Positions 7,677-50,811 of a DNA stretch of 64,000 nt are shown here, in pieces. Below the pieces are notes generated by a model. That model searched no databases, was not told the DNA's origin, and saw only the letters and a program-made list of their open reading frames with translations. The DNA is from Haliotis asinina (taxonomy: Eukaryota > Mollusca > Gastropoda > Lepetellida > Haliotidae), in contig NC_090288.1 in assembly GCF_037392515.1 (NCBI RefSeq), forward strand, positions 1,798,001 through 1,862,000. Direction: 5' to 3'. Numbering within the stretch: position 1 is the first letter of the stretch; every line of letters starts with the position of its first letter. The translations under genes and the position numbers were made by a program.

Positions 7677-10600
7677 ATGCAGCTCATGTATAAGACAAAC
7701 TCCATCCGGTACACCATGATCAGCGCTGTGGCGTGGACACTGGTCAGCTATATCGTGGGTGTGGCCTGGGGTCAGGTAGGTTGTCCAAATATTCTACATA
7801 CACCGGCAGGGATATATACATGTGTATAACGTGTATATATCCTGTATGTACACTGATCAGTACGGACTATCAGTCCTACTTTCCACTGAGGCCGGACTTG
7901 TCAATAAACATGTACACAACCTCCCATACTGCAGGTGTACTGCTCCTTCAGCACATACATATGGTATCGTCTCCAACTGTCGGGGGTACATGTTTACACA
8001 AACTAGTACGTTATCATGTTTACACCAATTGGTGTTATCATGTTTGCACTAATTGATCCTGTGCCTGGATCCGATGCCAATGTGGCTTCTGAAGAAATCC
8101 ATGGCTGGATCCCTACCTTTCCTAACCTACATGGTTAATCGGTCTTTGTCCGAGTTGTGCTTACCACTGCCCATGAACGCAGTATTTGTCATACCCCTTT
8201 TGAAGAAACCTAATATAGACAATGATAATATTATCATAAAACACTATCGTCCTGTGCCGAACCTGTCCTACATTTCCAAATTGACAGAGGAAGTAGTTGC
8301 CCTACGTCTCAAGGAGACATCCCACAACTGCTATGAACCTGTTCAATCTGCCTGTCTCCCTGGTCAAGCTCTGAAACAGCCTTGAGTAAAGTGATGAATG
8401 ACCTGTCAGAAAAGACTGATCCCATTTGGTGTACCCCAGTGATCTCTTTAGGCCCCGTGTTGTTCACCGAATATACAATCCCCCTGTGTGATGTTGCAAG
8501 AAAGCACAACCTACAATATCATCTGTACGCTGATGACACAAGATAAACATTGCCTTTGAATCTCTCCAAACACAAAATTAGAGCATCGTCCCAGAATGTC
8601 CAGGAATGTGTTGAACAAATGAGAAGTTGGATCACAAGTAAAGTTCTACCTCAAACTGAAGAACAAAATAGAACTGTTGATTCTCTGTCCTAAACGTGTT
8701 CGACCTAGAGTCTCACTGACATAAGTCAATTTTGGCGATTGTGAGATCACACCAAGCTCTTAAGTTCGAAACCTCGGAGTAGTTTCTGACACTCAGGTCA
8801 ATCTTGAGTCACAAGTCAACCTCCTCTCCAGGGGAGCCTACCATCACATCCGCCGCATTGGACATATCAAGCGATATATCAACACATTCAGTATAGGATA
8901 CTGGTACTGGTGTGCAAGTGTCTGGGCAGATCAACTCCGTCTTACTTCTCCAGTCTTATTCACTGATGCCAGCCATGTCGCTCACTCAGATCCAAACAGG
9001 GACTTCAACTACAAGTACCAACGTCAAGCAAAAAGACCTTACAAGTTTTAGGACAGACAGACAGACAGACAAATAGATAAATACATAGATAGATAGACTG
9101 ATAGATGTTTGCAAGGTACGTCATTATGTTTACAACGACTGGTATGTTATCATGTTTACACATAAAGTGTGTATGTTATCCTGTTGTGTTTTCAGATAGT
9201 TGGTGACATCCGCCTCGTAGGACAGAGTTCCAGGAACAGAGGGCTGTTGGAAACCTTCGTTAAGACGTACGTGTCTCAGGTATAGACAACACTAATACTT
9301 TCTGGAGACATGACAACCTTCATCGGGTAGAGCACATTTTCCATAAAAGTGATATGCTTCATACTTTATAAAATTATTAAATATTTTACAGATATGTGAC
9401 AACCTTCATCAGATAGAGTATAGTTTCTAGAGATGTGACAACCTTCATTAGATAGAATATAGTTTCTAGAGATGTGGCAACCTTCATCAGATGCGACAAT
9501 ATTCATTAGATGCAGTATAGTTTCTAGAGACATGCCAACATTTATTAGATAGAGTATAGTTTCTAGAGATGTGACAACCTTCATTAGATAGAATATAGTT
9601 TCTAGAGATATGCCAACAATCATTAGGTACAATATAGTTTTTAATACATGTCAACCTTCATTAGTTAGAGTATAGTTTCAATTGATGACAACCTTCAGTA
9701 GATAGAATAATTATAGTTTCTAGAGATATACCAACATTCATTAGGTACAGAATAGTGTCTAATATATGTCAACCTTCATTAGGTAGAGTATAGTTTCAAC
9801 TGATGACACCCTTCCTCAGCTACAGTACAGTCCGCATAGGATAGACAGCGAGAGTATAGTATAGTTTCTAGAGATATAAATTTATCAGCTGGACCATAGT
9901 TTCCAGAGGAAAGACAACCGTATCCAGATAGAAACCCTATGGTAGCTAGATATACCTCTTGGTAGAAAACACGTCTGTGACACAGTAGATTGTTAGTTCG
10001 TGTCTATGCTCTCACAACATGAAACAGGAACCGGAATGAAATTACCCGGAAGTCCTAACACGTAATTATCACGTGACAGATGGGGAGGCGTCTGTGACGA
10101 CGACTTCGACGAGAATGCTGCCATCGTTGCGTGTCGTCAGCTGGGGCTGCCCACGTCACATCCGTTATTCCTCACCAACAGACCGGGCTCAACGGTGTTC
10201 AATCTGGATGATGTCCAGTGCAGCGGCAACGAGACGGAGCTGGGGAACTGCCGACACAGGCTCTGGGGTGTATCCAACTGCGGAGATAACGAACACGTGG
10301 AGCTTGCATGTGCAGGTGAACTGGAACAGGCTTGATGCATACAGCATAGGAAGGGCACCAGAAATGAATAATGTGTATGACATATCACGCATAACAGTGT
10401 CTATATCAAAAAGTCTGACATACTAGTTTCATAAGAATCAATAAATGTAGCAGCTTCATTCATATTAGTGAAGGCACCAAACGAGACCATTTTCCCGTCG
10501 ACTGGACGTAGAACAATATGGGAGTGAAGCGTCTAAAGCGCCACAGTTTCCTATACGGAGTTGTGACCCTTAGGTTATACAACATCAAATGTTTTACCAT

Positions 10601-16600: not shown

Positions 16601-19600
16601 TTAATGTAATTTTCTGACTGGCTGAGCTCTCATCTAATATTTTCAATGTATCTCGCTTACAAGCGAGTAAAGTTTTTTTTTGGAATGTCGAGCTCAACTG
16701 GTACTTCGTGGTAGTACTTCTTTAACTCGAATAACATTTAATCACGTATGATGTACGGAAATTATTCTTTCTGATGACATTGCTAGATTTTGCAGGCAAG
16801 AAAAGCAGATTTAGAGTTATCTTCCATCCATCGATTTGCATTCTCAAAACATGGGTAATTTTCGTGCATCATGCGTAATTCAATGTTATTCAAGATACAA
16901 AAGTACTACCACGAAGTACTGAATAAGTTACCATTGGCAGCGGGGTACATTGAAAATAATGGAAGAGTGCTAAGCCAATCACAAAGCGATATTTGTGTGT
17001 GAGGCAAGATGAAGGTTAATGTACCCTCGATGTCTGTTTATGTTCCTTTCGGGCTCAGGGAACATAATCAAACATCGAGGGTACATCAGCCCATATTCCC
17101 TCGTGACCTCGTGAACAACTTAATATAGCACACGTCGGATCATTTTGACAAGTCAATAACAAACGCGTCGATACTATCCATGCACGACACATATATTATT
17201 GATGGATGGATGAAGTGAGAGAAAGGTCATGATGATGATGATGATGATGATGACGACGACGACGACGAAAAACAATTTCTGGCTATTTTCAAACTAGCGG
17301 AATCGACACCAACTGTCAAAATAATTGCCGGTCTGTTTGAAAATAGCTAAAACCACATTTCTCGAACACAACATGTTTATTCCCAGTGAACATTTGCACT
17401 TGCATTTAGAACTTTGTGGGGAAAAAACGAATTTGCAAGAATAAAACCGAAACTGTGCTCAAAGTTAGGGTATAAAAGCTAACCAGGTGTGTTCTCATAT
17501 ATCATGTTAATCGATTGACAACAAGGAACATGCCTCGTTCAACACCAGAGCAGAGGGGAGCAATCGGTATGTTACAGATGAGCACAAGAGCACGTGGCTA
17601 GGACCATGGGGTTCTTCACATCCACAATCGGGAGCCTTGTCATACGTCTACGACAGATTGGCAGTACAGCAGACAACCCAAAGAGTGGTAGACTGAAAAT
17701 CACTACTCTACGACAGATTGGCAGTACAGCAGACAGGCCAAAGAGTGGTAGACTGAAGATCACTACTCCATGACAGACTGGCAGTAATGCAGACAGGCCA
17801 AAGAGTGGTAGACTGAAGATCACTACTCTACGACAGATTGGCAGTACTGCAGACAGTCCAAAGAGTGGTAGACTGAAGATCACTACCCAACATGAAGAAC
17901 CACATTTACGGATTTTGCGCTTGAGGAACGTCACTGTGACGTCATGAAGCGCCAACAGTATTGGACATCCATTCAGCAGACAGCGTGTGACCAGAAGACT
18001 CCACATTCATGCATAAATTCATGTACATGGTCTCTGTGCCGATCGACCTTTCAACAGAGATGACGTTGACCTGCCAGATTGAGATGAACCAGGACTGTGC
18101 CACACTGGCAGCAGCGACACTGGCGAAGAGTGAACTTTGGTGACGAAAGCACGTTCCAGCTCTTCAAGATCTGTCCCCATTTGAGCACCTTTTTGAATAA
18201 CAGGGACGTCGTATTCGGAAACGCCAAAATCAGCCACTGACGAGGATGCTCTGCTAAACAAATGGCGTCGGATCCCTAATCAAGACAATAGTCGACGCCG
18301 GGTTAGGGCTTGCATCAGCGTCAGAGGTGGCCTCAGCCGGCATTGAACAATATGTTCTGCCCAAGAAGTTGTGAAAGCTCCCACTCGATTCTGCATTAGT
18401 GATCGATTACTGGATAATGCACCCCAGTGTCATTCATGTGATATTTGATCACGAGTTGCGTCGTTTTCCTTCTTGTTATCCATTTTATACTGTTGCTGAA
18501 TGATTGATTTTTGCAATAAAACATTTAATGTTACCTAATTTAGCTTAGGTTTTCTTTTAGACCGGAAAATATTTAGTGGCCTTTCTTATGGACGCTAGTT
18601 TAATTCTATCGAAAGTCTTTTCTACACACCTAAATTTGTGTAATTGTGGCCATATATTATAGAGGCACGATCTAACTTAAAGAAACGCTGTGCCAAATTC
18701 GTGCGTATTTTGAGATTCAGTCTAAGAAACAATGCTATTTATTCCAGTATGGATTTGATTCACAACGGGGTAGAGTACCAACCGAACACAACCGATCCTC
18801 TAACAGTGGAACCAGGGGAGAAGCTGTCAATCAAACTGTCTCTCCATAGCAACGACACGAATCTGCAGGTTTTCGCCAGGAACTGCAAAGCCACGCCTAC
18901 AAATGAAGAACACAAAACTGAACAATACCTGGTGTTAGACAATGGGTAAGTGTCACTAAGTTCTTACTTCTCCCGTAGAGCGTGTCAGACAATAGATAGG
19001 TGAATACTTCTCCTGTAGACTGCGTTTGACAATAGATAGGTGAATACTTCTCCTGTAGACTGCGTTTGACAATAGGTAGGTGAATACTTCTCCTGTAGAC
19101 TGCGTTTGACAATAGGTAGGTGAATACTTCTCCTGTAGACTGCGTTTGACAATAGGTAGGTGAATACTTCTCCTGTAGACTGCGTTTGACAATAGATAGA
19201 TGAATACTTCACCTGTAGACTGCGTTTGACAATAGGTAGATGAATACTTCACCTGTAAAGTGTGGCAGACACTGGATTGGTGACTACGTCTCCAGTAGCG
19301 TGTGCCAGACAGGGTAGGTCTTGTGAATTAATCTATTGTTGGATGCGTTCGTAAAATATATCCAGTCCCATGCTTTTACCAGTGAATGAGTGAGTGAGTA
19401 TGGTTTTACGCCGCTTGCAGCAGTATTCGAGCAGTATAATGTGCTTTTCACATTGTACCTATGTGGGGAGTCGATTCCGGGTCTTCGGCGTTACCAGCGA
19501 GTGCTTCACCGCTAGGCTACCCCACGGCCGCTATTACCAAACAATGACCTGGAGGACATTTCCCGATAGGTTCGACCTCCACGATGTCCATTACTGGGAT

Positions 19601-21263: not shown

Positions 21264-21710
21264 ATAAATGCTGTTTTTTTTCACAAACGTTTACAATTTC
21301 ATGTTCAGTGGTAATTATGTCATAATTTCAAGTTATGCTTTAGAGACAAGTGAAGCCAGTCTGTTTTAGAATGTTATCATAATTATGTGACAAAATGCAA
21401 CTAAAACATAGACAACAGACAAGCATCTTTTAAATACGCTAAAGTCAGGTGGTTAGAAACGCTTCTAGAAAGTTCACACCAAGCTGGAACATCAGCATAA
21501 GAACGTTGTCATATATGTGAGAAGTCAACACACTGAAGCTAACTGTACTTGACTCTGTGTCAAGGTTAATATTTATGTGTGTTCACCACTGCTCTAGCAG
21601 TCATTGTCTTTGATGTGTATCCAGTATATTTCAAAGCCCCAATTTCCATACCCTGCCGAACATGTGAAAATCTAAAGATGCAAATAATAGTTTCTCGTTT
21701 TGCTATATTC

Positions 21711-21974: not shown

Positions 21975-21979
21975 AAAAT

Positions 21980-34700: not shown

Positions 34701-37700
34701 GGTTACAGGTGGCCTTGTCGGCGCACATGCCGCAGTTGGAGGAACAATTGAGTCCGAACGTTGAGTTGGGACAAACTGCGGAGACAGTAGTGGGAAGAAG
34801 GCAGGTGAAATGTTCCCTTAACAATTCTGTAGACAGTTTGCAAGAAATACATACACTAGTTTCATTGTGTTCCACCACCTATCACTCTCAGTCACCATCT
34901 TGTCACTCTCAGTCACCATCTTGTCACTCTCAGTCACCATCTTGTTACTCTCCCCCACCATCCTTTAACTCTCCCCCACCATCCTGTCACTCTCCCCCAC
35001 CATCCTGTCACTCTCCCCCAATCATCCTGTCACACTTCCCCAATCATCCTGTCACTCTATCCCATCACCCTGTCACTCTCCCCCAACCATCCTGTAACTC
35101 TCCCCCAAACATCCTGTCACTGTCCCCCAACCATCCTGCCACTCTAACCCACAACCCTGTTACTCTCACCCACCACCCTGTTACTCTGTCCCACATCCTG
35201 TCACTCTACCACAACACCCTGCCACTCTGTCCCACCACCGTCACTCTCCCCCACCATCCTGTCACTCTACCCTACCATCCTGTCACTCTGTCCCATCACC
35301 CTGTCACTCTACCCCACCACCCTGTTACTCTGTCCCACAATCCTGTCACTCTGTACCACCACCCTGCCGCTCTGTCCCACCATCCTTTCACTCTAACCCA
35401 CCACCCTGTCACTCTAACCCACCACCCGGTCACTCTGTCCCACCATCCTGTCACTCTGTCCCACCACACTGTCGCTCTACCCCACCATCTTGTCACACTT
35501 CCCCAACACCCTGTCACTCTCCCCCAACCATCCTGTAACTCTACCCCACCATCCTGTCACTCTGTCCCACCATCCTGTCACTCTGTCCCACCATCCTTTC
35601 ACTCTAACCCACCACCCTGTCACTCTAACCCACCACCCGGTCACTCTGTCCCACCATCCTGTCACTCTGTCCCTCCACACTGTCGCTATCCCTCACCATC
35701 TTGTCACACTTCCCCAACACCCTGTCACTCTCCCCCAACCATCCTGTCACTCTAACCCACAACCCTGTCACCCTCACCTGTCTGACAGTCTGTCCCCATC
35801 CACCCGGCGCTGCAGCCAGTACGAGGACACTCTCCGGTCATCTTGTCACAGACTTCTGACGTGTTCTGACATCTGCACAGCTGACTACAGTTAGCCCCGA
35901 ACCAGAATTCATCACATTCTGCAACAATCAAGCAACATTTCCTCTGCTGGTAGTTCGTCAATGTCTTGTCAATCCTCTGTCAATCTTCGACTATGTATCC
36001 TTGTAACGGGTGTATGGACCCTTTTAACGGGTGTGTGTATCCTTGTAACGCGTGTATGTATCATTGTAACGGGTGTGTGTATCCTTGTAAGGGGTGTATC
36101 ATTGTAACGGGTGTATATATCCTTGTAACGGGTGTATGTAGCATTGTAACGGGGGTGTGTATCCTTGTAACGGGTGTATGTATCATTGTAACGGGTGTAT
36201 ATATCCTTGTAACGGGTGTATGTATCCTTGTAATGGGTTCATGTATCCTTGTAACGGGTGTGTGTATCCTTATAATGGATGCATGTATCGTTTTAACGGG
36301 TTTACAAATCTCATGTGAGAAGTATTTTGTTTTCAGATTTTCGGGGAATACATTCCTTGTTTTGTAAATAATCTCGCGACACATGTCTTGTCTATGCTGC
36401 GATTTGCCTTCACGTCCTTAGGTGTTTGGAGCACAACGCCATCTAAACATTACCACCACGGCTACCTGAATCAAGTGCTTCTTGCTTGTTTCGTTAAACC
36501 TCAGGCTGAGTGTTGGCATGTCGTGTTAACCTACGTCCAACAACCGCAGAACTTGTGCTCATACTATAAACTGTTTTTAGAATTTAAAATTTTGATTTAC
36601 AGTTTTCTTTGAACTCACATAAGCTCTATCAAGAAAGAATTAATGCTTTTCGCCTCTTTCAGCAACAATATGGGTACATCGTCAAGGAACACCAGACATA
36701 ACCTTCATCCAGTTGAGACTCGAACCTGGGCCTTTGACGTGACGAGTGAACGCTGTAACCATTACGCTTTAAATCGCCTCCACCAAGATAGAGAAAGAAA
36801 AGTCCTCGACACAATCACATGCGATTTGTTGCTGCACGCTCGGCCTTGTAACTGACTTTCATATTTGTGACAGATAACTAATAGGTGTTGTTTTCTCTGG
36901 ATCTCTCGTCACGTTTTGTGTTTGCTGGAAGGAATTTATGACCTTTAACGGAACCAAGTTAGTATAGTGTAAGACTTCCTCTCACCATAAATCAACACCT
37001 CGCAGAGAACAAGTACTCGGTCGATAGGGCCGCCGGTCACCCCCGGGCTGGTCGGGAAGGGGGGCAGGTTGATGGACACAAACACCCCTCTGAGAGGTTG
37101 TCGGCAGGTGATGTCGGCGATGGTGGGGAGAGAGGTGTTGGAGACGTAGCACACTGCACCGTCCACTGTCACTTTCAGACCCACCGTGGAGTAGATGTCT
37201 GTAGAAGTGTGATAAATGAGAAACCATGACGACATTGTATGAAGCTCGTAAGGCAACATCGGTGTGAGGGGTTGGGTGGTATTCCGTCCTCTACAGAGGA
37301 TGGCAGTTGGTATTCAAACTGATATGATTACCGTGTCTGAAGCTTAATGATGTGGGTGGGTGGGCGAGTAAGTTGGGTGTCTGGGCGAGTGAGTTGGGTG
37401 AGTGAGTGAGTGAGTGAGTGAGTGAATTTGAGTGCCAGTTTTTGCTGTATGCAATACATCGATTCCAGAACACAAAAATACCCGTAAATAAGGAGAGATC
37501 CTGGAACATTATTCATAGTAAGTACATAAGAATTATGGCATGTGGCATAGTCTAGATCTGTCGTGAAATGTACAAACTGTTCACTATGTAAGGTTTTAAT
37601 TAGGGGCACATGTACAACGTGAATGTCACACACACAGATACACACACACACACACACACCACCTCCACCCGCATGTACAAAATCAATGACCACTCCTTAA

Positions 37701-40700
37701 TTCATGTGTACACAACTGACTCCCACTCACTACCTCCACAAAACAGAATGGGAGACACCTCACCTAAAATACATTATGAACGGTCGATCATATTATCTTG
37801 ATCTACATTATATTGATTATAATCTCGATCACCCAGCTCAAGAAATAACAACGCCACTCACATGTGGAAGTTGATTATTTGAATCCAGCTCACGAAATAC
37901 GTTGAATCTTTGGCTTTGTTCATTATGTAGATAGAGTAAACCACAGGCAAACTAGCGCAAGTGGGGTTGCGCAGCGTAGAGAATATGACCAGTCTTCATA
38001 TATGCGCGCGAAGCGAGCAAAGGTTGGCAACACACTTCCCCCGCTTCGGTTCAAAAAGTATTTTTCGTGTCAAAATAAAATATTGCCACCATCAAAGGTA
38101 CACTCCAAATTGCTGACTAGGTTGTGATCTCAGATTTCATTTCCAACGCCATATTTAACAATTACTCACGTAAAATATGTTTTATTCAACATTTTAAGCG
38201 CCACATGAATAAAACACATTTCACGTGAGTAATTATTAAATATGGGTTTGGAAATCGGACAGAACAACCTACTGAGGAAATGGGAGTGTACCTTTGATGG
38301 TGGCGACAGTTTATTTTGACACGAAAAATACTTTAATTTTGAACCGAAGCGAGGGAAGTGTGTTGCCACCTTTGCTCGCTTCGCTCGCCAATATGAAGAC
38401 TGGTCATTTTCTCTACGCTGCGCAACCACATTTGCGCTTCAGTTTGCCTGTGAGTAAACGAGGATGAGTAATATTTCCAACATAAAGACTAGAGTAGTTT
38501 TCCCCCATAAATGCTGCGCAACACCATAAACATTAACCTAGATATCTAGGTCATATGACTCATCGCGATGTGTTGTGAAGAGTAGTAATTACTTGCCCTT
38601 CAATCCCTGGATATACTTCAGAAACGGATTTGTAGTCCTTCCCCATTTCTCCACGATTTTCCTGGGCTATTGGACAGTTTTGTAATGTGCCGTTCAAAGG
38701 AAATTTCAAAGCAGGAAGTACAGATTGAGATTTGTAGGCATTATGTGTCCTTGCCCTGATTAGCCTCGTTTAGGTACAGATATAAATATTCAAATGGCAT
38801 CATTAAGAATAGTATATTGTAGTCGGATCTAAAATGCTGTACGCCTGGTGACAAAATTCATCACAAAATAATTATTTGTAAGTATCTTCCTAATTTACTG
38901 ATGCACTGCTGTGTTGAGAAAACACCCAGGACATGAACAGGGGCACATAAAGGAACCTTTTTGAGGAAAGTAAATCTTCATCCTGTAGATCTGATGTAGA
39001 CTTCCCAAACTGAGGTCCCAGGAAGTGATGGTTCGCCCAAGTGCAGTGTGGGAACAAGATCCGTGCCGGAAGTCCTGGTCAGTGCTGCCATCTACCGCTA
39101 GTGACGCCGGTCTGGGACCGCAGTATGTCGTGGAGGTCGTGCTGCAGTTACTGGCGTCGCTCCACGTTCCCTCCTGGTGTGCGGTCTTGTTCAGGGCCAT
39201 GTTATCTGGACACGGGATGGACACAAGACACTTTAAGCCAACACAACACGTGGAAGTGAGTTGAAGTTGTAACCGTTGATTTACCAATACCCGGATTTCA
39301 CCACGACCCAACGTCACCCAAACCTATTTCTTCGACCACTGTCCGCCAAAATTGTCTCAAGAAACCAAAAATGCAACTGTATGAACTATATATGTTTTTG
39401 AATGACCCTCAAATATTGGGGACAGCATGTAATCTGCAGCACCGGTGTCCTTGAACCAGTCCCCCTCGTTACCTTTCAGTACCGTCCGTCGTTAAATCTA
39501 CCAGTTCCACAGACGTCTAATGTAGCACGTCGGTACTCACGGGTCTGGCAACCTGTGCCCGTCCATGCTTCCGCACACTGACTTGTGCATGCTCCAGAGA
39601 GTTTATCGCACACTTCTAGTTCATCCTTACAGTGGCACTTATACTGGCACTTGTTTCCGAACCAGAAGTCGCTACACTCTGAAAGAAACAAACTGTTGTT
39701 ACCTCACTTCGTATAAAATGCATTCCCATAAGGGTTAAACACCCGGGATTTGATTTTGGAAGCACTCTTTGAGCTAAGACAGTGGTAAGTTAATGTCTGG
39801 CACTTAAATCTTAACACTAGGAGGACTTCAAAAATCGGGATCCTAACGTTTACAAATGCAAGTACTTAATTTGCGATGGCGGGTACGGGTGGTCAGACTC
39901 GCTGACTCATGCATTGTTTGCGTATATCGATGCTCATGATGTCGGGCACAGAATTGTCTGATTAATTGTAGATGTTCTTTACTTGTGTTGAGAGAATTAA
40001 GTGTCAATGTATATGGCTGTATACAGGGTGGCTAGCACGTCACACGTTGGTTCCTGACATGCTATATCCTGGATCTTGTACTCACGGAATATCTTGACCT
40101 CACATAACGTCAGGGACGGAACAGTGTCGATAGACGACGTCCGCAACGTTAACGTGGAGCCCAACAACGTCTGGTGACAGGTAACGTGAATGATCGTGCT
40201 GCTGATGTCACTTCCCGTGACGTTGTAACATTCTTGCCCGTTCACAAACACCTCGATATAACGCGGCGGCAGAGGAACTGGGAGAGATAATGTAAGTGAG
40301 AGACATCATATGTATATATCTTACCTGATGACATCAAATCTCGACTTGAAGACGCTCTCTCACAAAATCAGAGATAGGGGATGAGTGGATTTAGTTTTAC
40401 GCCGCTTTTAGCAAGAATCCAGAAATGTCAAGGCGGGGTACATCTCCGAGAGACATTCAAAGAGTAGTCAGCTTCACCTAGAATTTGACACAAATGCTGC
40501 TGCTTTTATGTTTTATTTTTCTACATATTATCTGTCAGCCTTAAACAAACTGGCTGCTATGTTCCAGCCTCACGATCCCAAGTTTGTGTGACTTTGTAGC
40601 TTGGCTTGGAACTAAAGTAGCTTTTTCAAATAGCCCCCTATCCTGTTTACTGAAAAAAAACACCTCGAGAAATGATGGACTGTGTTCAAATTAAGTACCA

Positions 40701-43700
40701 CAATTTATTGACGAGATGTACCGACAACCATTTGGGTTTTGTTACAGCAAGGTGTAACAGTTTTGTACATACCAAGCTTGGTAACCGCGAACACAGGAAA
40801 TAATAAAATGATTTTGATCCAATTTTATATCAAGATGTATTCGCGGGATTCCACCATCACAAGTTGATTTCGGCATTTGTGCTCATTTTAAGTTCACAGT
40901 GAAAATTGTTTTTGCACACGTCCGTCTATTGTTTTAGTGCGAAAACACAAGACAGAATTAATATATTTTGCTTAAAAGTAGAACCAAGATGTGTTGGGAG
41001 TGCCGCCAGTCAAAGTCAGTGACTTTCGGACATTTTCGAGGTCACAGCGAGTATTCTTGCGATATCTCCAAAACTAATGGATGAATTTGGTCGCATCTTA
41101 TATCAAGGAATCAGATGACAGTTTCGGTAACGCAACAATTTTCTGGGTCAGACAGAGGATTACTGCGACATTCAGATATCCACATGGAGCAGGGGTAATA
41201 GCTATATCTGTGACAAACGCTGTTTCAATACTAATTTTCAATTTTGTTTGATACCAAATGGTTTCTATAGTTTCATGCTAATTCTTCCATCTGTAAAATT
41301 ATTTGTCACACTTCTTACAAAAAAACCCAGAGCTTTTTGTGTATGTTTCGAATAGTAAAGTTTATTGTTCTTCATTACGGAGTTTTTACCTATTTTGACG
41401 CAAGAACATATTTTACGAGCAACAGCTTTCAACAATACAGTGTTATTTCTATTTCATTTTGAAGTTCTTCACAGCAGATCCAAAAATAACAGGATATTGT
41501 TTGTCTGCCCTTTGAGGTGTATTCTTCCTCATTTTCGAATAATTATCAATGTTGACGCTCTGAATATTTGAAGTTAATTTTACGTTTTGATCATTTCTGA
41601 CTTATTATGATTTATGTTTCGACCATACATTAACTTATTGTTAATGCAGTTTAACCTGGTTCGTACTATTTTCTCCATCATATTCCTATATATCAAGGAG
41701 TCTCCCATACATGCTCAAAGTAACCCCAGACTTCCTCCTGTGAGATACAGAATGTGTCTTCTACCTGTCAGGTAAGGAATCATGTATTTAGTTTCACCGC
41801 TGAAATTTAAACCAAGAAACCAAAGGGTGGAATTAGCCTCAAAGAGTGATAATAACAAATTTTCTAACATACAAGGGCAAAACTATCGGTGATAATTTTT
41901 CATAAGATGTGTACGGGATAAAATATCATTTTGTCATGGTGACATGACATCACGAATACTGTTATGACGTCAGATTGCTTCTAAGATGTCGCCGTCTAAT
42001 ACAACGGTAACGGGGACCCTGCCTTTGTTGGAAAATAGATGTCGCCGTCTAATAGAACGGTGACGGGGATCCTGCCTTTGTTGGAAAATAGATGTCGCCG
42101 TCTAATACAACGGTGACGGGGACCCTGCCTTTGTTGGAAAATAGATGTCGCCGTCTAATACAACGGTGACGGGGACCCTGCCTTTGTTGGAAAATAGATG
42201 TCGCCGTCTAATACAACGGTGACGGGGATCCTGCCTTTGTTGGAAAATAGATGTCGCCGTCTAATACAACGGTGACGGGGACCCTGCCTTTGTTGGAAAA
42301 TAGATGTCGCCGTCTAATACAACGGTGACGGGGACCCTGCCTTTGTTGGAAAATAGATGTCGCCGTCTAATACAACGGTGACGGGGACCCTGCCTTTGTT
42401 GGAAAATAGATGTCGCCGTCTAATACAACGGTGACGGGGACCCTGCCTTTGTTGGAAAATAGATGTCGCCGTCTAATACAACGGTAACGGGGACCCTGCC
42501 TTTGTTGGAAGATAGATGTCGCCGTCTAATACAACGGTGACGGGGACCCTGCCTTTGTTGGAAAATAGATGTCGCCGTCTAATACAACGGTGACGGGGAC
42601 CCTGCCTTTGTTGGAAAATAGATGTCGCCGTCTAATACAACGGTGACGGGGACCCTGCCTTTGTTGGAAAATAGATGTCGCCGTCTAATACAACGGTGAC
42701 GGGGACCCTGCCTTTGTTGGAAAATAGATGTCGCCGTCTAATACAACGGTGACGGGGACCCTGCCTTTGTTGGAAAATAGATGTCGCCGTCTAATACAAC
42801 GGTGACGGGGACCCTGCCTTTGTTGGAAAATAGATGTCGCCGTCTAATACAACGGTGACGGGGACCCTGCCTTTGTTGGAAAATAGATGTCGCCGTCTAA
42901 TACAACGGTGACGGGGACCCTGCCTTTGTTGGAAAATAGATGTCGCCGTCTAATACAACGGTAACGGGGACCCTGCCTTTGTTGGAAAATAGATGTCGCC
43001 GTCTAATACAACGGTGACGGGGACCCTGCCTTTGTTGGAAAATAGATGTCGCCGTCTAATACAACGGTGACGGGGACCCTGCCTTTGTTGGAAAATAGAT
43101 GTCGCCGTCTAATACAACGGTGACGGGGACCCTGCCTTTGTTGGAAAATAGATGTCGCCGTCTAATACAACGGTGACGGGGACCCTGCCTTTGTTGGAAA
43201 ATAGATGTCGCCGTCTAATACAACGGTGACGGGGACCCTGCCTTTGTTGGAAAATAGATGTCGCCGTCTAATACAACGGTGACGGGGACCCTGCCTTTGT
43301 TGGAAAATAGATGTCGCCGTCTAATACAACGGTGACGGGGACCCTGCCTTTGTTGGAAAATAGATGTCGCCGTCTAATACAACGGTGACGGGGACCCTGC
43401 CTTTGTTGGAAAATAGATGTCGCCGTCTAATACAACGGTAACGGGGACCCTGCCTTTGTTGGAAAATAGATGTCGCCGTCTAATACAACGGTAACGGGGA
43501 CCCTGCCTTTGTTGGAAAATAGATGTCGCCGTCTAATACAACGGTAACGGGGACCCTGCCTTTGTTGGAAAATAGATGTCGCCGTCTAATACAACGGTGA
43601 CGGGGACCCTGCCTTTGTTGGAAAATAGATGTCGCCGTCTAATACAACGGTGACGGGGACCCTGCCTTTGTTGGAAAATAGATGTCGCCGTCTAATACAA

Positions 43701-46700
43701 CGGTGACGGGGACCCTGTCTTTGTTGGAAAATAGATGTCGCCGTCTAATACAACGGTGACGGGGACCCTGCCTTTGTTGGAAAATAGATGTCGCCGTCTA
43801 ATACAACGGTGACGGGGACCCTGCCTTTGTTGGAAAATAGATGTCGCCGTCTAATACAACGGTGACGGGGACCCTGCCTTTGTTGGAAAATAGATGTCGC
43901 CGTCTAATACAACGGTGACGGGGACCCTGCCTTTGTTGGAAAATAGATGTCGCCGTCTAATACAACGGTGACGGGGACCCTGCCTTTGTTGGAAAATAGA
44001 TGTCGCCGTCTAATACAACGGTGACGGGGACCCTGCCTTTGTTGGAAAATAGATGTCGCCGTCTAATACAACGGTAACGGGGACCCTGCCTTTGTTGGAA
44101 AATAGATGTCGCCGTCTAATACAACGGTGACGGGGACCCTGCCTTTGTTGGAAAATAGATGTCGCCGTCTAATACAACGGTGACGGGGACCCTGCCTTTG
44201 TTGGAAAATAGATGTCGCCGTCTAATACAACGGTAACGGGGACCCTGCCTTTGTTGGAAAATAGATGTCGCCGTCTAATACAACGGTGACGGGGACCCTG
44301 CCTTTGTTGGAAAATAGATGTCGCCGTCTAATACAACGGTAACGGGGACCCTGCCTTTGTTGGAAAATAGATGTCGCCGTCTAATACAACGGTGACGGGG
44401 ACCCTGCCTTTGTTGGAAAATAGATGTCGCCGTCTAATACAACGGTGACGGGGACCCTGCCTTTGTTGGAAAATAGATGTCGCCGTCTAATAGAACGGTG
44501 ACGGGGACCCTGCCTTTGTTGGAAAATAGATGTCGCCGTCTAATACAACGGTGACGGGGACCCTGCCTTTGTTGGAAAATAGATGTCGCCGTCTAATACA
44601 ACGGTGACGGGGACCCTGCCTTTGTTGGAAAATAGATGTCGCCGTCTAATACAACGGTGACGGGGACCCTGCCTTTGTTGGAAAATAGATGTCGCCGTCT
44701 AATACAACGGTGACGGGGACCCTGCCTTTGTTGGAAAATAGATGTCGCCGTCTAATACAACGGTGACGGGGACCCTGCCTTTGTTGGAAAATAGATGTCG
44801 CCGTCTAATACAACGGTGACGGGGACCCTGCCTTTGTTGGAAAATAGATGTCGCCGTCTAATACAACGGTGACGGGGACCCTGCCTTTGTTGGAAAATAG
44901 ATGTCGCCGTCTAATACAACGGTGACGGGGACCCTGCCTTTGTTGGAAAATAGATGTCGCCGTCTAATACAACGGTGACGGGGACCCTGCCTTTGTTGGA
45001 AAATAGAAGTCCCCGTCTAATACAACGGTGACGGGGACCCTGCCTTTGTTGGAAAATAGATGTCGCCGTCTAATACAACGGTGACGGGGACCCTGCCTTT
45101 GTTGGAAAATAGATGTCGCCGTCTAATACAACGGTGACGGGGACCCTGCCTTTGTTGGAAAATAGATGTCGCCGTCTAATACAACGGTGACGGGGACCCT
45201 GCCTTTGTTGGAAAATAACAGATTCCTTCTCTGGCCCCGAAAATACCAAGATTTAGGCAGTGGTATTGTTGGTATGGTATGACAAGAGCAGCCACATTAA
45301 GCTTCTGTAAAGTTGGTTACATTCCAATCATGAGAAATGTCGTCATGTAATGTCTGATAAAAGTTACCAACTCCCCAGTTTTAGAAATCTATAACAAATA
45401 TTCACACCCTTTTTAGGATAAATGACAAAGGATAATTCAACCATGTCAAAAGGTTTTCTGGCTTAAAGGACGAAGCTCATTAAAAATTTCCGTTTTAGAG
45501 GCTAATAAAAGGTTCGGAAATGTGGGTTATAAATACATGACGAGAGTCATTTGAACAAGCGATTGTAGTTCCAAGCCAAGCTACAAAGTCAGACAAAATG
45601 GGGATTGTGAGCCTGGAACATAGCAAACCACTGACAGATAATATGAAGATAATATGAAGATAATATGTAGATAATATGTAGATAGTTAATACATAAACGC
45701 AGCAGCATTTGTATCATATTCTAGGTGAAGCTGACTTCTTTTTTAAACGTCACTCGTAGATATACCCGTCCACCACCACCCGACTCTACATGCATGGAAG
45801 TGTTAGATATATCCGTTATGATACCCCATCTCCCCAATGCCGCGCCCCCCCCCCCCCCCCCCCCCCCCACCACCACCACACACACACTTTATATGAATAT
45901 ATATCACCACCTCAACAGATATTTGCGGGGAAAAACACATAAAGACATGATACAGAAGGCAGTTAGCGACTTTCTATCGATTAAACATCAGTGCGAATAT
46001 CATCTACGTCATTTAGCTAAGATTTGTCAAATCTTCCATGCATTATCGCGCTAACAATCTTTGTATTGGCAAAATGCTCAGATTTTTGCTGTGTCCTTGC
46101 AAATTATCTCAAGGTCACTCAGTTTTACTGATGTCGGTGAATCTCGCCAATCTATATGTTTTGGCACCAGATTTGAACAAAATCTATCAGTAGTTTCTTG
46201 AGTTATCGCCCTAACAATCTTATATGATGTATGATTTACAACGAAAAACAACACACGTATTTACGAGTGATTAAAATTATCACAATTTACGTAAATTTTA
46301 ATTACAATTTGCACATTACAATTTACGTCAATGTTTATTACAGTTTGTAACAACAAGCCCCTGTGTTACACTATACGTCAAGTCTATTACAATTTGCTGC
46401 AAGTATTACAATTTGCGTTTTTGTTACACTTTTCGTGGTAACATTTGTTACCCACTATGCGTAACCACCGACCCCAGGACTATATAGAAACAAAAGATGC
46501 TAACTACTGATACCTACTCAAAATAAACAAGTTCGTATAATTCTAATTCTATTGTTTTTGTGTTTTTTAAAGTTTATGCGACCTATTCATGTGGTCATCA
46601 TCTTACATATCAATTCACGTTGTGACGTTAAATCACAACACGACTGCACATGACTGCACACGACCTACGTACGGTAAGAAGTCATCATTGCAACACAAGC

Positions 46701-49700
46701 ATTGCACAGAATCTGGTCATGTACATATTTGGGTTGCACATACAACTTATAATAACCTACACATATTTCAAAACATCTATATATCGTCATAAAATCTTTA
46801 AGAACAACATGTATTCCATATCATGGAATACTTTGTTTTGTTTTCAGAAACCTGTCTAAACAATACCAAATGGGCTACAAAAAGTCACGTTGAAGAAATC
46901 ATGTCGGATTTCTTGAAACAGGCCACACATAAGAAAGATGGACTAAAGTGCTCGCAATTATTTCCGCGAAAGTTTGATTCGCCAGAATTTAGTGAAATCA
47001 ACACGTCGATTTTGACTGAATATAATTTCTGAAATAATCATAGAAGCAGAAGGAGTCCAGTAACTGGTTATTTTTGGCATGTATTAACAAAAATGAAGTA
47101 ATCACAGAAAAGCAACATTGTCTCGTTTTCCTACCATGATTAGCTTGATATATCTGCAGGCTGCTGATATTATAGGTGGCCCCGAGATCTAGTCGCCACC
47201 AAGCGGACTGGTTACTTGTGTCTGTCACTGAGCATGAGCCATGCCAGTAGTTGGTGTCGTCACTTCCGTCGACGGCTAGCTGCGCCCCGTGCGCCCCACA
47301 GAAACTCTGCACATCTTGGGTGTCGGGGACACAGTCCGAGGTGTCCACGTAAACCCCACTCTGACTCGCCGATCTGTTGTAGGCCACGTTGTCTGGAACC
47401 AAGGAAGGACGATAAAAGTATCGATGCAACAAGTACATGTTACAACTTTGAACATTCAGCCGTTACTTAATCACCAGTTCAGTTCAGACGACAATTGCTG
47501 ACAGTTGATGGAGCTTGTGGTACGATCCTAACTAATCTTGCTAACGGTTTTGCTAACATTGTTGATGAGATACGCTCGAATGTTTCAAGTGACTTTGTTT
47601 ACCAGTAATTTCAAAATTACTGTGCCAACACGCCATCTGCGTGTAAATTGTAAATTTGTTAGGTTTTCTTTTTTATTACAATTACTTCAGCAAGATAGAT
47701 ATAAACATATATCATTTTTGCACTAAACGTTCACTATTTTCCACTCATGTCCGGATTCCTCCGCGTGACGTGTGACCCGGATGTAGTTGGCTTGCTCTGG
47801 AACGTCTAAACGTAATACATTTAGCTCTACGGCTGAAGTCAAATCACGGGAAGGTTTTGACGTATCTGAGAATATATCACATCGTGGTGGACAATATTGA
47901 ATTTATTCATCAGAAGTTTACATCGTAGTTACATAACCTGCGTTATTCTCTCGATAAGCTGTATATTCATAGTATTCTGTATATTCATAGTATTCTGTAT
48001 ATTCAAGTATTCTGACTTAATCTTGTTTGTATGTACCACACGGGAATTAAATTATAGCTACCAGACCGCGATGTAAAGTCTATACTGGTGGTCACAGATC
48101 ACATTTTCACCATTTTAATGTGAGGCATTCATCAAAGGTAATTACATGTGTTACGACTCTCTATTGCTATATGTATCCATCCCCCATTTGAAGTAGACCT
48201 AACAGTGGGCACTCACGGAGCTGACAGAAAGGTCCATCCCACCCCGACTGACACCCGGATGAACACGGCGTTGGGAACGTGAAACACTCCTTCTCCACCT
48301 CAGCACAGTGGCAGTTGAAGGTACCTGTAAAACAATGAATACATCACATATGTCTGTCTGTAGTGTCCGAAATGGCTTACCTTGACTCTAATCGGTGTGG
48401 GATGTGTACAGTAATGTCTAGTGTCCCATATGGCTTACCTTGACTCTAATCGGTGTGAGATGTGTACAGTAATGTCTAGTGTCCCATATGGCTTACCTTG
48501 ACTCTAATCGGTGTGGGATGTGTACAGTAATGTCTAGTGTCCCATATGGCTTACCTTGACTCTACTTGGCGTGAGATGTGTACTGTAATATCTAGTGTCC
48601 CATATGGCTTACCTTGACTCTAATCGGTGTGAGATGTGTACAGTAATGTCTAGTGTCCCATATGGCTTACCTTGACTCTAATCGGTGTGAGATGTGTACA
48701 GTAATGTCTAGTGTCCCATATGGCTTACCTTGACTCTACTTGGCGTGAGATGTGTACAGTAATGTCTAGTGTCCCATATGGCTTACCTTGACTCTAATCG
48801 GTGTGAGATGTGTACAGTAATGTCTAGTGTCCCATATGGCTTACCTTGACTCTAATCGGTGTGGGATGTGTACAGTAATGTCTAGTGTCCCATATGGCTT
48901 ACCTTGACTCTACTTGGCGTGAGATGTGTACAGTAATGTCTAGTGTCCCATATGGCTTACCTTGACTCTAATCGGTGTGAGATGTGTACAGTAATGTCTA
49001 GTGTCCCTTACGGCTTACCTTGACTCTAATCGGTGTGGGATGTGTACAGTAATGTCTAGTGTCCCATATGGCTTACCTTGACTCTAATCGGTGTGGGATG
49101 TGTACAGTAATGTCTAGTGTCCCATATGGCTTACCTTGACTCTAATCGGTGTGGGATGTGTACAGTAATGTCTAGTGTCCCATATGGCTTACCTTGACTC
49201 TAATCGGTGTGAGATGTGTACAGTAATGTCTAGTGTCCCATATGGCTTACCTTGACTCTAATCGGTGTGAGATGTGTACAGTAATGTCTAGTGTCCCATA
49301 TGGCTTACCTTGACTCTACTTGGTGTGAGATGTGCACAGCAATGTCTAGTGTCCCTTATGGCTTACATTGACTCTACTTGGTGTGAGATGTGTACAGTAA
49401 TGTCTAGTGTCCCATATGGCTTACCTTGACTCTACTTGGTGTGAGATGTGTACAGCAATGTCTAGTGTCCCTTACGGCGTACATTGACTCTAATTGGTGT
49501 GGGATGTGTACAGTAATGTCTAGTGTCCCATATGGCTTACCTTGACTCTACTCGGTGTGGGATGTGTACAGTAATGTCTAGTGTCCCTTACGGCTTACCT
49601 TGACTCTAATCGGTGTGAGATGTGTACAGTAGTGTCTAGTGTCCCATATGGCTTACCTTGACTCTAATCGGTGTGAGATGTGTACAGTAATGTCTAGTGT

Positions 49701-50811
49701 CCCTTACGGCTTACCTTGACTCTAATCGGTGTGGGATGTGTACAGTAATGTCTAGTGTCCCATATGGCTTACCTTGACTCTAATCGGTGTGGGGTGTGTA
49801 CAGTAATGTCTAGTGTCCCATATGGCTTACCTTGACTCTAATCGGTGTGAGATGTGTACAGTAATGTCTAGTGTCCCATATGGCTTACCTTGACTCTAAT
49901 CGGTGTGGGATGTGTACAGTAATGTCTAGTGTCCCATATGGCTTACCTTGACTCTAATCGGTGTGGGATGTGTACAGTAATGTCTAGTGTCCCATATGGC
50001 TTACCTTGATTCTATCCGGTGTGGGATGTGTACAGTAATGTCTAGTGTCCCATATGGCTTACCTTGACTCTAATCGGTGTGGGATGTGTACAGTAATGTC
50101 TAGTGTCCCATATGGCTTACCTTGACTCTAATCGGTGTGAGATGTGTACAGTAATGTCTAGTGTCCCATATGGCTTACCTTGACTCTAATCGGTGTGGGA
50201 TGTGTACAGTAATGTCTAGTGTCCCATATGGCTTACCTTGACTCTAATCGGTGTGAGATGTGTACAGTAATGTCTAGTGTCCCATATGGCTTACCTTGAC
50301 TCTAATCGGTGTGAGATGTGTACAGTAATGTCTAGTGTCCCTTACGGCTTACCTTGACTCTAATCGGTGTGAGATGTGCACAGCAATGTCTAGTGTCCCT
50401 TACGGTTTACATTGACTCTACTTGGTGTGAGATGTGGACAGCAATGTCTAATGTCCCATATGGCTTACCTTGACTCTACTTGGTGTGGGATGTGTACAGT
50501 AACGTCTAGCGTCCCATATGGCTTACCTTGACTCTACTTGGTGTGGGATGTGTACAGTAATGTCTAGTGTCCCTTACAGCTTACCTTGACTCTACTTGGT
50601 GTGAGATGTGGACAGTAATGTCTAGTGTCCCATATGGCTTACCTTGACTCTTCCCACTGTGGTGTGTGTACGGCAATGTATAGATAAGGATTTCCTCCAC
50701 CCTACCCGGGGTGTCCACCTATGTGCAGCATATTGAAGATTTACCTTGACTTTGTCCGCGATGGAGTGTAAACACAATGACAGCAAACAGGTAGAGAATA
50801 TTTGACTTCAT
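24847..50811 (-). CDS. Multiple-EGF / F5/8C-like type I receptor with NPxY tail, complete 20-exon gene
   Basis: Coding exons in order: 50811-50745, 48324-48217, 47392-47135, 40277-40086, 39678-39541, 39205-38957, 37198-36986, 35918-35778, 34775-34641, 34234-34100, 33473-33336, 32777-32643, 31649-31509, 30032-29898, 29778-29644, 29212-29075, 28769-28635, 28316-28020, 25726-25654, 25057-24847. The sum is 3174 bases: 1057 residues plus TGA. Exons 2 to 18 are all phase 1-1. Domains: signal peptide 1-22; EGF 23-58; F5/8C-like 59-208; EGF 209-254; F5/8C-like 255-408; ten EGF 409-864; Thr/Ser-rich stalk 865-963; TM helix 964-987; 70-residue tail with NPNY 1045-1048. The EGFs are of the eight-cysteine MEGF/Draper/SREC type. 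The tail motif could bind PTB adaptors, as in CED-1/Draper engulfment receptors. In molluscs similar ectodomains also occur on receptor tyrosine phosphatases, but no phosphatase domain follows here. Function (recognition or scavenger receptor) is inferred. Confidence 0.88.
25345..25470 (+). mobile_element. SINE fragment (family 2) in intron 19
   Basis: Contains GATCGGGTGGTCAGGCTCTC, TGACTTGGTTAACACATGTC, GAGATCGATGCTCA and GTCCAGACTCCA, the middle part of family 2. Confidence 0.75.
25738..26000. repeat. About 28-bp minisatellite next to the TM exon acceptor (intron 18)
   Basis: About nine diverged copies of a unit containing ACAACAGGTAAATATGGTGA and AGCAAG. It begins about 12 bases from the acceptor of exon 19. 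Confidence 0.8.
26101..28012. repeat. 80-bp satellite-like array, about 24 copies (intron 18)
   Basis: A very regular unit containing TATGATCTACAGTG, TTCCCGCTACAGCCTCTAGA and ATAGCTTCATCATTCACCAG. Copies differ at only a few fixed positions (GTG[T/C]TTCC, CTAGA[A/T]TG). It starts about eight bases after the donor of exon 18 and fills most of intron 18. Confidence 0.97.
28020..28316 (-). CDS. Thr/Ser/His-rich stalk exon (exon 18)
   Basis: About 99 residues rich in Thr, Ser, Pro and His (for example TTVTYTHTTATTKTPATSST), with no cysteines. It is probably an O-glycosylated stalk holding the EGF array away from the membrane. It ends CAGAAG before donor GTGAAC, phase 1. Confidence 0.85.
28635..31649 (-). 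CDS. EGF block B, exons 13-17, tandem duplicate of block A
   Basis: Exon lengths are identical to block A (141, 135, 135, 138, 135). The first module differs from its partner by one residue (DDFWFG for DEFWFG); the others differ at a few positions each. The starts of the blocks are 4269 bases apart. Introns also match in order and position, including the minisatellites in the first and fourth introns. The duplication is therefore fairly recent and in frame. Confidence 0.93.
28860..29074 (-). repeat. Donor-bearing minisatellite, intron 16 of the EGF receptor gene
   Basis: About six copies of a unit of about 35 bp. On the minus strand each copies the end of exon 16 (GCGCTGTGTCAACAAG) plus its donor GTGAGT or a worn form. 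It begins immediately after the real donor. Confidence 0.9.
30100..31508 (-). repeat. 22-bp minisatellite with 271-bp higher-order repeat, intron 13
   Basis: On the minus strand the unit is about GGATGGTGGGACAGAGTGAC plus two bases. It runs from the donor of exon 13 to within about 70 bases of exon 14, nearly the whole intron. Three 271-bp blocks (near 30523, 30794 and 31065) are almost identical, showing later block-wise expansion. Long open frames in it are artefacts. Confidence 0.95.
32643..35918 (-). CDS. EGF block A, exons 8-12
   Basis: Five phase 1-1 exons of 141, 135, 135, 138 and 135 bases, each one EGF module of the MEGF type: ECDEFWFGANCSQLCRCQ; VCPNSTFGLNCSSNCGMC; ECLAGLYGVKCDQSCPGC; GCHDDWYGPSCQLPCGEC; ECPDGRYGMDCSKVCGHC. 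Block B (31649-28635) repeats the same five modules in the same order. Confidence 0.92.
32870..33335 (-). repeat. Donor-bearing minisatellite, intron 11 of the EGF receptor gene
   Basis: About 14 copies of a 32-37-bp unit. On the minus strand it reads GGGGGCGCTGTGTCAACAAG, then GTGAGTACACCA. The real exon 11 ends GGGGGCGCTGTGTCAACAAG with donor GTGAGA. At least seven copies keep AACAAG or AGCAAG followed by GTGAG. Confidence 0.95.
34292..34559 (+). mobile_element. Full-length SINE (family 2) with 9-bp target-site duplication, intron 9
   Basis: Flanked by ATACTTCAT at 34283-34291 and 34560-34568. It starts ATCCCGTGAAGTTCTGGGTT and ends GTGCGGCGTAAAAGTAAAGT then CACTCACTTC. The equivalent intron 14 is only 119 bases long and has no SINE. 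Confidence 0.92.
34880..35777 (-). repeat. 22-bp minisatellite, intron 8 of the EGF receptor gene
   Basis: The same family as in intron 13 (the duplicated partner): minus-strand units such as GTGACAGGATGGTGGGACAG. It starts at the donor of exon 8 and fills about 90% of the intron. It lacks the 271-bp higher-order blocks. Confidence 0.93.
35985..36305. repeat. About 21-bp minisatellite, intron 7 of the EGF receptor gene
   Basis: About 15 copies of ATCCTTGTAACGGGTGTGTG or close variants, 65 bases before the acceptor of exon 8. Confidence 0.93.
36625..36775 (-). mobile_element. SINE fragment (family 1), intron 7
   Basis: The reverse complement has a tRNA-like head with GTAATGGTTACAGCGTTCAC, GTCAAAGGCCCAGGTTCGAG and GTTGCTG in the body. 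Confidence 0.65.
36986..39205 (-). CDS. F5/8C-like domain 2 (exons 6-7)
   Basis: Exon 6 (39205-38957): DNMALNKTAHQEGTWSDASN, SLAVDGSTDQDFRHGSC, SWDLSLGSLHQIYRMKIYF. Exon 7 (37198-36986): VTVDGAVCYVSNTSLPTIAD, ITCRQPLRGVFVSINLPPF, LVLCEVLIYG. The layout and intron position are those of domain 1, so the two arose by duplication of an EGF plus F5/8C unit. In exon 6 the first Trp of the usual WWxxDLG is replaced (SWDLSLG). Confidence 0.85.
37370..37430. repeat. GAGT-rich simple repeat
   Basis: A run of GAGTGAGTGAGT with interruptions in intron 6. It may be a degraded SINE tail. Confidence 0.7.
37628..37660. repeat. (CA)n microsatellite
   Basis: A short CA run with one GATA interruption, in intron 6 of the EGF receptor gene. 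Confidence 0.85.
37942..38452. mobile_element. Foldback MITE with 7-bp target-site duplication, intron 6
   Basis: Two arms of about 245 bp form a near-complete palindrome around a loop of roughly 19 bases. The outer ends are CACAGGCAAACT and AGTTTGCCTGTG. AGTAAAC is present on both sides (37935-37941 and 38453-38459). It has no coding capacity. The family is not certain. Confidence 0.92.
39885..39965 (+). mobile_element. SINE fragment (family 2), intron 4
   Basis: GGGTGGTCAGACTCGCTGAC and ATCGATGCTCATGATGTC mark the middle of family 2. Confidence 0.65.
40385..40440 (-). mobile_element. SINE tail fragment, intron 3
   Basis: The reverse complement ends in AAAAGCGGCGTAAAACTAAA. It lies just outside the left inverted repeat of the satellite-bearing unit. 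Confidence 0.65.
40466..45736. mobile_element. 5.27-kb unit bounded by about 150-bp inverted repeats and carrying a satellite array
   Basis: The left end AGTCAGCTTCACCTAGAAT and the right end in reverse complement are identical over the first 19 bases. They stay alignable through ACAAATGCTGCTGC, CTATGTTCCAG and ACTTTGTAGCTTGGCTTGGA. The right copy carries an extra short TAATATGAAGA repeat. Between them lie about 1.4 kb of non-coding sequence, the 53-bp array, and about 0.35 kb more. I see no coding sequence and no target-site duplication, so it may be a non-autonomous DNA transposon or just an inverted duplication. Confidence 0.65.
41995..45217. repeat. 53-bp satellite array, about 61 copies (intron 3 of the EGF receptor gene)
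   Basis: A unit ATGTCGCCGTCTAATACAAC, then GGTGACGGGGACCCTGCCTT, then TGTTGGAAAATAG. Copies are nearly identical; the main variants are GGTAACGG for GGTGACGG and a few single changes. Such homogeneity suggests recent expansion or ongoing homogenisation. Confidence 0.98.
45737..47134. other. Remainder of intron 3 of the EGF receptor gene
   Basis: Contains a C-run of about 27-29 bases followed by CCA and CA repeats (45845-45888) and a stretch rich in TTACAATTTGCG-like words (46260-46440). No exon recognised. Confidence 0.45.
45845..45888. repeat. Poly-C / (CCA)n / (CA)n tract
   Basis: A long uninterrupted C run grading into ACC and CA repeats. The minus strand is a G run, able to form G-quadruplexes. 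Confidence 0.9.
47135..47392 (-). CDS. F5/8C-like domain 1, N-terminal half (exon 3)
   Basis: Begins DNVAYNRSASQSGVYVDTSD, then AVDGSDDTNYWHGSCS and WWRLDLGATYNISSLQIYQ. The AVDG and WWxLDLG boxes mark F5/8-type-C / F-type-lectin-like beta-jellyrolls, which bind glycans, phospholipids or proteins. The C-terminal half is exon 4 (40277-40086, RYIEVFVNGQECYNVTG to LCEVKIF). A 6.9-kb intron separates the two halves. I cannot see the fucose-binding triad of true F-type lectins clearly. Confidence 0.85.
47393..48216. other. Intron 2 of the EGF receptor gene
   Basis: Mostly plain. A small triplication of GTATATTCATAGTATTCT lies near 47960-48015. An exon-like open stretch at about 47740-47815 was considered and rejected. 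Confidence 0.45.
48357..50660 (-). repeat. 58-bp donor-bearing minisatellite, about 40 copies (intron 1 of the EGF receptor gene)
   Basis: On the minus strand each unit carries AGAGTCAAG followed by GTAAGCC, a consensus 5' splice site. The unit resembles the end of exon 1 (TTACACTCC, then AAAGTCAAG, donor GTAAAT). The array fills about 95% of the intron, from roughly 30 bases before the exon 2 acceptor to roughly 85 bases after the exon 1 donor. Confidence 0.96.
50745..50811 (-). CDS. Signal-peptide exon of the EGF receptor gene
   Basis: Encodes MKSNILYLFAVIVFTLHRGQ then SQ, and ends AGTCAAG before donor GTAAAT (phase 1). A short positive start, a hydrophobic core and a polar end fit a cleaved signal peptide. 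It is the only phase-1 signal exon upstream of the EGF exon at 48324-48217. Confidence 0.85.

Follow-up and report, generated by a model that had tools for sequence, protein, structure and literature searches.

Tandem arrays in introns of two genes of Haliotis asinina repeat the end of the neighbouring exon together with the 5' splice site that follows it, and arrays of the same kind recur in further genes of this genome. We interpret them, with a probability of about 0.7, as local tandem duplications over donor junctions that already existed, which were tolerated and then grew into boundary minisatellites of the type called 'mirages' in amphioxus. The reading that donor junctions are themselves the starting points of a mutational process, proposed in a first-pass annotation of this DNA, is weighed against this below.

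Gene models and arrays of the window

The window, by which we mean the whole analysed stretch of 64,000 nucleotides (C9:1798001-1862000 in a genome of 1.14 Gb), contains a receptor gene and a ZP gene (Table 1). The receptor was rebuilt exon by exon; all internal junctions of its 17 exons are in phase 1, and the spliced translation has no internal stop and matches F5/8C and laminin-EGF domains in Pfam. The ZP gene is likewise translated without an internal stop, has a stop codon at its end, and gives Pfam matches to SRCR, EGF, ZP-N and ZP-C. Since both genes could be rebuilt, their splice sites are reliable and the arrays could be tested against the junctions. Exons 8-12 of the receptor are internally duplicated as exons 13-17, and the exon pairs are 91-99% identical (123/135 to 139/141), with 131/138 for exons 11 and 16. 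The pair of exons 8 and 13 stands apart at 139/141, against 91-95% for the other duplicate pairs (28635-35918), an unevenness that suggests gene conversion or patchy age. The EGF modules of the receptor have many matches in the genome, which cluster on few contigs, mainly C7 and C9, and evidently represent a large related gene family.

Arrays were taken as called by TRF. Alignments paired each intronic array of the window with the donor and acceptor of its own intron, taking 40 bases on each side, and the donors and acceptors of other introns as well as shuffled units served as controls. For 11 arrays the exon side alone was also compared with shuffled exon ends. The genome was searched with the repeat units by a method that skips common words. 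Seven of the 16 receptor introns contain no TRF array at all.

Table 1 Genes of the window and the arrays proposed as donor copies (window positions; a slash marks the exon-intron boundary)
Feature	Position	Strand	Description
ZP gene	7677..21263	+	exons 1-10; SRCR, EGF, ZP-N, ZP-C
ZP intron 2 array	9390..9814	+	39-bp unit; true donor 9266
ZP intron 8 array	18965..19257	+	40-bp unit GTTTGACAATAG/GTAGGTGAATACTTCTCC
Receptor gene	28635..50813	-	modelled exons 1-17; EGF-like, F5/8C
Receptor intron 16 array	28868..29096	-	duplicate-derived counterpart of intron 11 array; true donor 29075
Receptor intron 13 array	30117..31502	-	duplicate-derived counterpart of intron 8 array
Receptor intron 11 array	32897..33357	-	~32-bp unit GGGGGCGCTGTGTCAACAAG/GTGAGTACACCA; true donor 33336
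Receptor intron 8 array	34872..35778	-	21-bp unit, begins at exon 8 donor
Receptor intron 1 array	48361..50651	-	58-bp unit, 39.5 copies, consensus GAGTCAAG/GTAAGCC; true donor 50745

Arrays that copy the donor junction

The copying is plainest in receptor introns 11 and 16, where the unit, GGGGGCGCTGTGTCAACAAG/GTGAG, consists of the last ~20 coding bases plus the donor and the TRF arrays begin 22 bp inside the exon. The exon-end bases recur in the array at 20/20 positions for intron 11 and at 17/19 for intron 16 (with shuffled exon ends as control, p 0.005 in both cases); intron 16, at 305 bp, is short and yet carries a junction array. ZP intron 8 has its true donor after position 18945, GTTAGACAATGG/GTAAGTG, and its unit carries GTGT.AGACAAT on the exon side, followed by the donor. 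Its junction score ranks 1 among 25 donors (p 0.004), and the exon side alone reaches p 0.025.

We regard receptor intron 1 with moderate confidence as a donor-junction copy. The unit shares 11 identical bases with the true site across the junction (AGTCAAG/GTAA, p 0.012), and the exon side alone gives p 0.33. All 40 copies carry the GT, and 37 of them equal or exceed the true donor in score. The arrays of receptor introns 8 and 13 start at the donor, with offsets of -1 and +6. Their exon side alone gives p 0.11 and 0.045, respectively, which may point, weakly, to an exon origin.

The units of introns 11 and 16 match the genome only at these two introns, those of introns 8 and 13 only at introns 8 and 13, and that of intron 1 nowhere outside its own locus, all within a search that skips common words; the arrays thus look locally grown. 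Members of the two pairs differ in array length (461 against 229 bp in introns 11 and 16, 907 against 1386 bp in introns 8 and 13). As both pairs are duplicates, they count as two events rather than four, and the window as a whole holds three or four, not seven.

Seven was the number of donor-copy introns proposed in the first-pass annotation. Receptor introns 11 and 16 and ZP intron 8 bear the proposal out, receptor introns 1 and 8/13 are weaker cases, and ZP intron 2 drops out. The donor proposed there, CAG/GTATAG, would throw the SRCR sequence out of frame; the donor that keeps the frame follows position 9266 and reads GTACGT. The ZP intron 2 array lies 123 bases from it, with p 0.11 for the exon side and p 0.04 for the junction against mispaired donors. 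Accordingly, the proposal that the arrays start no more than about 100 bases from the donor is correct for all the listed introns except ZP intron 2, and the figure of up to 95% of an intron filled by the array is confirmed by receptor intron 1.

Eleven other arrays, in receptor introns 2, 3, 6 and 7 and ZP introns 1, 3, 5, 6 and 7, do not match their own donor, bar one of the two arrays in ZP intron 6, which does so marginally (p 0.048). In ZP introns 1 and 3 the array matches the window around its own acceptor (p 0.008 and 0.014), but in intronic bases only, with no exon content. Receptor intron 3 contains a 53-bp array of 61 copies that is 99% uniform (41984-45217); it matches neither splice site, each of which is over 1.7 kb away. 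Downstream of receptor exon 17 there is an 80-bp array of 23 copies, 97% uniform (26142-28008), which does not match the exon 17 donor (p 0.42). ZP intron 1 also contains a reading frame ending in ..YHLYADDTR (8337-8546), which, judging by this motif, looks like a decayed remnant of a LINE-type reverse transcriptase.

Junction arrays in other genes

Loci outside the window were chosen by matches to ZP, SRCR or EGF queries. Among them we read L002 and L004 as clear junction arrays, L074, L068 and L046 as diverged ones and L001 as a partial one. The recurrence across genes that had been claimed for the two genes of the window therefore holds there and extends to further genes. L002 is a ZP paralogue on contig C5 with an array of ~3.3 kb and 55 matches (C5:73315179-73318466). 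Its exon end and donor, ACCTCATCAGAGATGG/GTAAGTGACACAAGACG, are followed by a ~60-bp unit with the identical exon end and donor. This unit matches the genome only at its own locus, again in a search skipping common words, and is the fourth without matches elsewhere. Most L002 copies have TGA where the exon has AGA; the copies have thus been freed from coding. L003, a paralogue ~17 kb from L002, has identical last exon bases and a GTAAG donor, and no TRF array was found in the 1.5 kb examined. As L003 has the donor without the array, the L002 intron need not derive from the array.

L004 repeats GACC.ACGTCACG/GTGAGTACAGGACGTCACA, and L074 contains two further diverged copies of ATATCCGGGTGTT.AACCACCCACAAG, both of which have lost the GT. 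At least 19 exon bases are repeated with few mismatches in receptor introns 11/16, L002, L004 and L074. Among copies with a full 9-mer, the GT is retained in 40/40 for receptor intron 1, 25/25 for L002, 32/34 for L046, 9/12 for receptor intron 11, 4/8 for ZP intron 8, 2/4 for receptor intron 16 and 1/2 for L004. L027 and the remaining arrays in the list of 46 gave no accepted case; L027 is donor-like but has p 0.16. By eye, a two-copy repeat spanning an acceptor and exon start (ttgtttgtacag/TGTGTCCTAATGG) was seen at L077:2053-2135; it is an acceptor-side counterpart, seemingly in a broken exon.

Donor junctions compared with acceptor junctions

For a formal comparison, 150 donors and 125 acceptors were sampled, of which 124 and 100, respectively, come from loci beyond the window, and each array was scored against its own junction (25 exon plus 12 intron bases) and against mispaired, dissimilar junctions. 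Over all pairs, with hand-added donors included, matches at p<=0.01 number 10 among the 44 donor arrays and rise to 14 at p<=0.05; none of the 32 acceptor arrays matches at p<=0.05. The set was then reduced to one array per junction, leaving out the duplicate introns 13 and 16 and two donors that had been added by hand after their arrays were seen (an NHL-like exon at L074 and the upstream exon of L004). In this pooled, reduced set the counts at p<=0.05 are 9/36 for donors and 0/29 for acceptors (Fisher 0.003). The nine include ZP intron 2 (p 0.04), which we do not accept as a donor copy, and L046 (p 0.047), whose donor was corrected by hand after the array was read; neither counts at p<=0.01, where 6/36 donors and 0/29 acceptors match (Fisher 0.024). 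The arrays therefore resemble their own donors better than mispaired ones (binomial 1.5e-6 for the six), as the first-pass annotation had expected.

Its further expectation, an enrichment at donors and not at acceptors, stands for the pooled set and falls short of significance outside the window. There, without the hand-added donors, donors still exceed the mispaired null, with 3/24 matching at p<=0.01 (binomial 0.0017) and 4/24, L046 among them, at p<=0.05 (binomial 0.030), against 0/15 acceptors (Fisher 0.22 and 0.13, respectively). The eight ZP exon ends (L001-L008) were read by hand as one set. Array starts lie less than 100 bases from the donor in 15/44 cases, with 4.4 expected under uniform placement, and less than 100 bases from the acceptor in 7/32, with 4.0 expected; outside the window without hand-added donors the counts are 6/24 (2.3 expected) and 3/15 (2.2 expected).

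A search of the exon-end 30-mers of SRCR/EGF exons against their flanking introns is a weak test. At a score of at least 22 it gave 6/113 matches on the donor side (0.95 expected) and 0/96 on the acceptor side (0.78 expected), but several controls were raised as well: mid-exon against the downstream flank 3 (0.99 expected) and exon end against the upstream flank 4 (0.85), with 2 (1.03) for exon start against the downstream flank and 1 (0.78) for mid-exon against the upstream flank. By eye, the only junction arrays among the six donor-side matches are L068/L065; three matches are alignments to apparent neighbouring homologous exons, and the L046 match used a misplaced donor.

Signatures of mechanism

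The ten junction units show no unusual folding (z from -0.81 to 1.14), and their GC skew takes both signs (-0.87 to +0.85), without a G-skew signature. Amplified donors are not significantly stronger than the others (mean score 9.3 against 8.1, p 0.11; groups of 10 and 141 of the 150 donors, with L074 in both). Arrays without a junction match have no sense-strand bias for donor motifs (14/29), indicating that such motifs come with the junction and are not favoured in arrays generally. In receptor intron 1 the donor 9-mer diverges less between copies than the rest of the unit (1.4% against 3.9%, p 0.013), which hints at constraint. The relation is inverted in ZP intron 8 (11.1% against 3.0%, p 0.01), and five other arrays tested show no significant difference, so constraint on the repeated donors is inconsistent across arrays. 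Genome-wide, paired donor 9-mers number 185, against 374 for the reversed motif, 2400 for a permuted motif and 217 for its reverse, counts that are swamped by a few huge arrays, in some cases single ones, and that lend no support to an excess of donor motifs across the genome. Paired AAGGTAAGT occurs at no fewer than about 20 distinct places on C1-C7 among the matches listed, about half of which have more than one pair.

Origin of the junction arrays

The course of events that we favour would begin with a short tandem duplication that took in the last exon bases and the 5' splice site of an existing intron. The first, exon-adjacent donor would still be spliced, leaving the extra copies intronic and harmless. 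Slippage or unequal exchange could then expand the duplicated pair into a minisatellite, in some cases until it fills the intron. The excess at donors would reflect tolerance: duplication of a donor does no damage to the exon and would be tolerated because the first donor would still serve, whereas a duplicated acceptor would put an earlier AG before the exon. Tolerance would thus lead to fewer acceptor arrays without any donor-directed mutation, and selection of this kind is most likely the cause of the donor bias.

The process envisaged in the first-pass annotation would instead start at the 5' splice sites themselves, through R-loops, hairpin slippage or transcription-coupled breakage, making donors hot spots of tandem duplication. 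On a genome-wide scale, duplications beginning at 5' splice sites would enlarge introns in many genes and spare the acceptors. We consider both the mechanism and its genome-wide form unlikely. The pooled contrast of 9/36 donors and 0/29 acceptors agrees with it, and the clustering of array starts near donors (15/44 against 4.4 expected) is not obviously explained by tolerance alone and keeps a mutational reading alive. However, folding, G-skew and donor strength give no sign of such a process, the paired donor 9-mers are fewer than the reversed, permuted and permuted-reversed motifs (in counts swamped by huge arrays), and the donor-acceptor contrast outside the window is not significant (Fisher 0.13). 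In amphioxus, moreover, both kinds of boundary are repeated, and selective tolerance accounts for the donor bias equally well. Still less probable is that the arrays of pseudo-5' splice sites are kept for a function, such as binding U1 to protect long introns or delaying splicing. Receptor intron 1, with its 40/40 GT, its 37 copies matching or exceeding the true donor and its better conserved 9-mer, is what such a function would lead one to expect, but ZP intron 8 behaves in the opposite way, five other arrays show no significant difference, non-junction arrays lack a sense-strand bias (14/29), and even an intron of 305 bp carries an array.

Rogers-type intron gain, in which the introns themselves would have arisen when an AGGT site was tandemly duplicated, is disfavoured and very improbable here. 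The units do contain AG/GT; the mechanism has been proposed for amphioxus globin introns (PMC3087553), and in duplicated human genes boundary repeats have been tied to introns that are new (PMC2812944). Such a gain requires that the intron be absent before the duplication, but the receptor introns lie at phase-1 module boundaries, 7 of the 16 without a TRF array, and L003, in the 1.5 kb examined, has a donor without an array at the ZP boundary that carries the array in L002. Coincidence, in which abundant minisatellites would occasionally match the donor consensus, might serve for receptor introns 1 and 8/13 and ZP intron 2, which are near noise on the exon side. As an account of the whole it is just as hard to credit, given the 19 or more exon bases repeated with few mismatches in receptor introns 11/16, L002, L004 and L074, and the 6/36 junctions at p<=0.01 against mispaired ones (binomial 1.5e-6).

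Relation to known boundary repeats

The first-pass annotation knew of no description of this pattern, but two known systems are of the same kind. The amphioxus reports (PMC3087553, PMC3902484) describe 'mirages' in globin (BflGb6/BflGb9) and Adh3 genes, where exon-intron boundaries are tandemly duplicated in the manner of minisatellites, with similar duplications in PGBD5, and with troponin C cited alongside; both 5' and 3' boundaries are affected, and RT-PCR suggested normal splicing. As in the abalone, the units span the exon-intron boundary, many copies contain AG/GT, and the arrays occur in several genes of one genome. The animal is different, our formal test finds donor boundaries only, and one array here has 55 matches over 3.3 kb. 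Judged by the features that define mirages, the unit spans the boundary in receptor introns 11/16, ZP intron 8, L002 and L004, and in diverged form in L074; the tandem copies lie in the intron adjoining the boundary that they resemble, with the own junction scoring above mispaired ones; and many copies carry splice signals.

The other system is the 31-bp VNTR of human CBS, described as c.1444_1467+7 with 16-21 copies (PMC2630376), which we take to mean 24 bases of exon followed by 7 of intron, the donor among them. A second report places it at the exon 13/intron 13 boundary, links it to enzyme activity and calls it non-coding (PMC5188458). It is a single polymorphic locus with a reported effect, whereas the abalone arrays occur in several genes and, in comparison with CBS as with amphioxus, are known from genomic sequence alone. 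Boundary repeats in human segmental duplications have been linked to novel introns (PMC2812944). These and AGGT intron gain share with our arrays a tandem duplication or repeat at AG/GT, but the abalone introns seem to pre-exist. In abalone, a polymorphic 27-bp intronic minisatellite is reported for a TSSK1-like gene, and splice-site copying is not stated in the part of that report available (PMC6905558). The literature searched, with subscription journals mostly outside it, gave no molluscan or genome-wide donor-junction case. The kind is thus known; what is new is the host, how many genes of a single genome are affected, how large the L002 array is, and an apparent preference for donors.

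Receptor intron 1, whose 40 copied 5' splice sites are intact and mostly match or outscore the real one, offers a natural test of how the spliceosome selects the donor next to the exon. Should the donor bias extend over the whole genome and be mutational rather than selective, it would reveal one way in which introns lengthen from the 5' end. The occurrence of the lancelet 'mirage' pattern in an apparently different phylum suggests that the small number of published cases understates how common it is.
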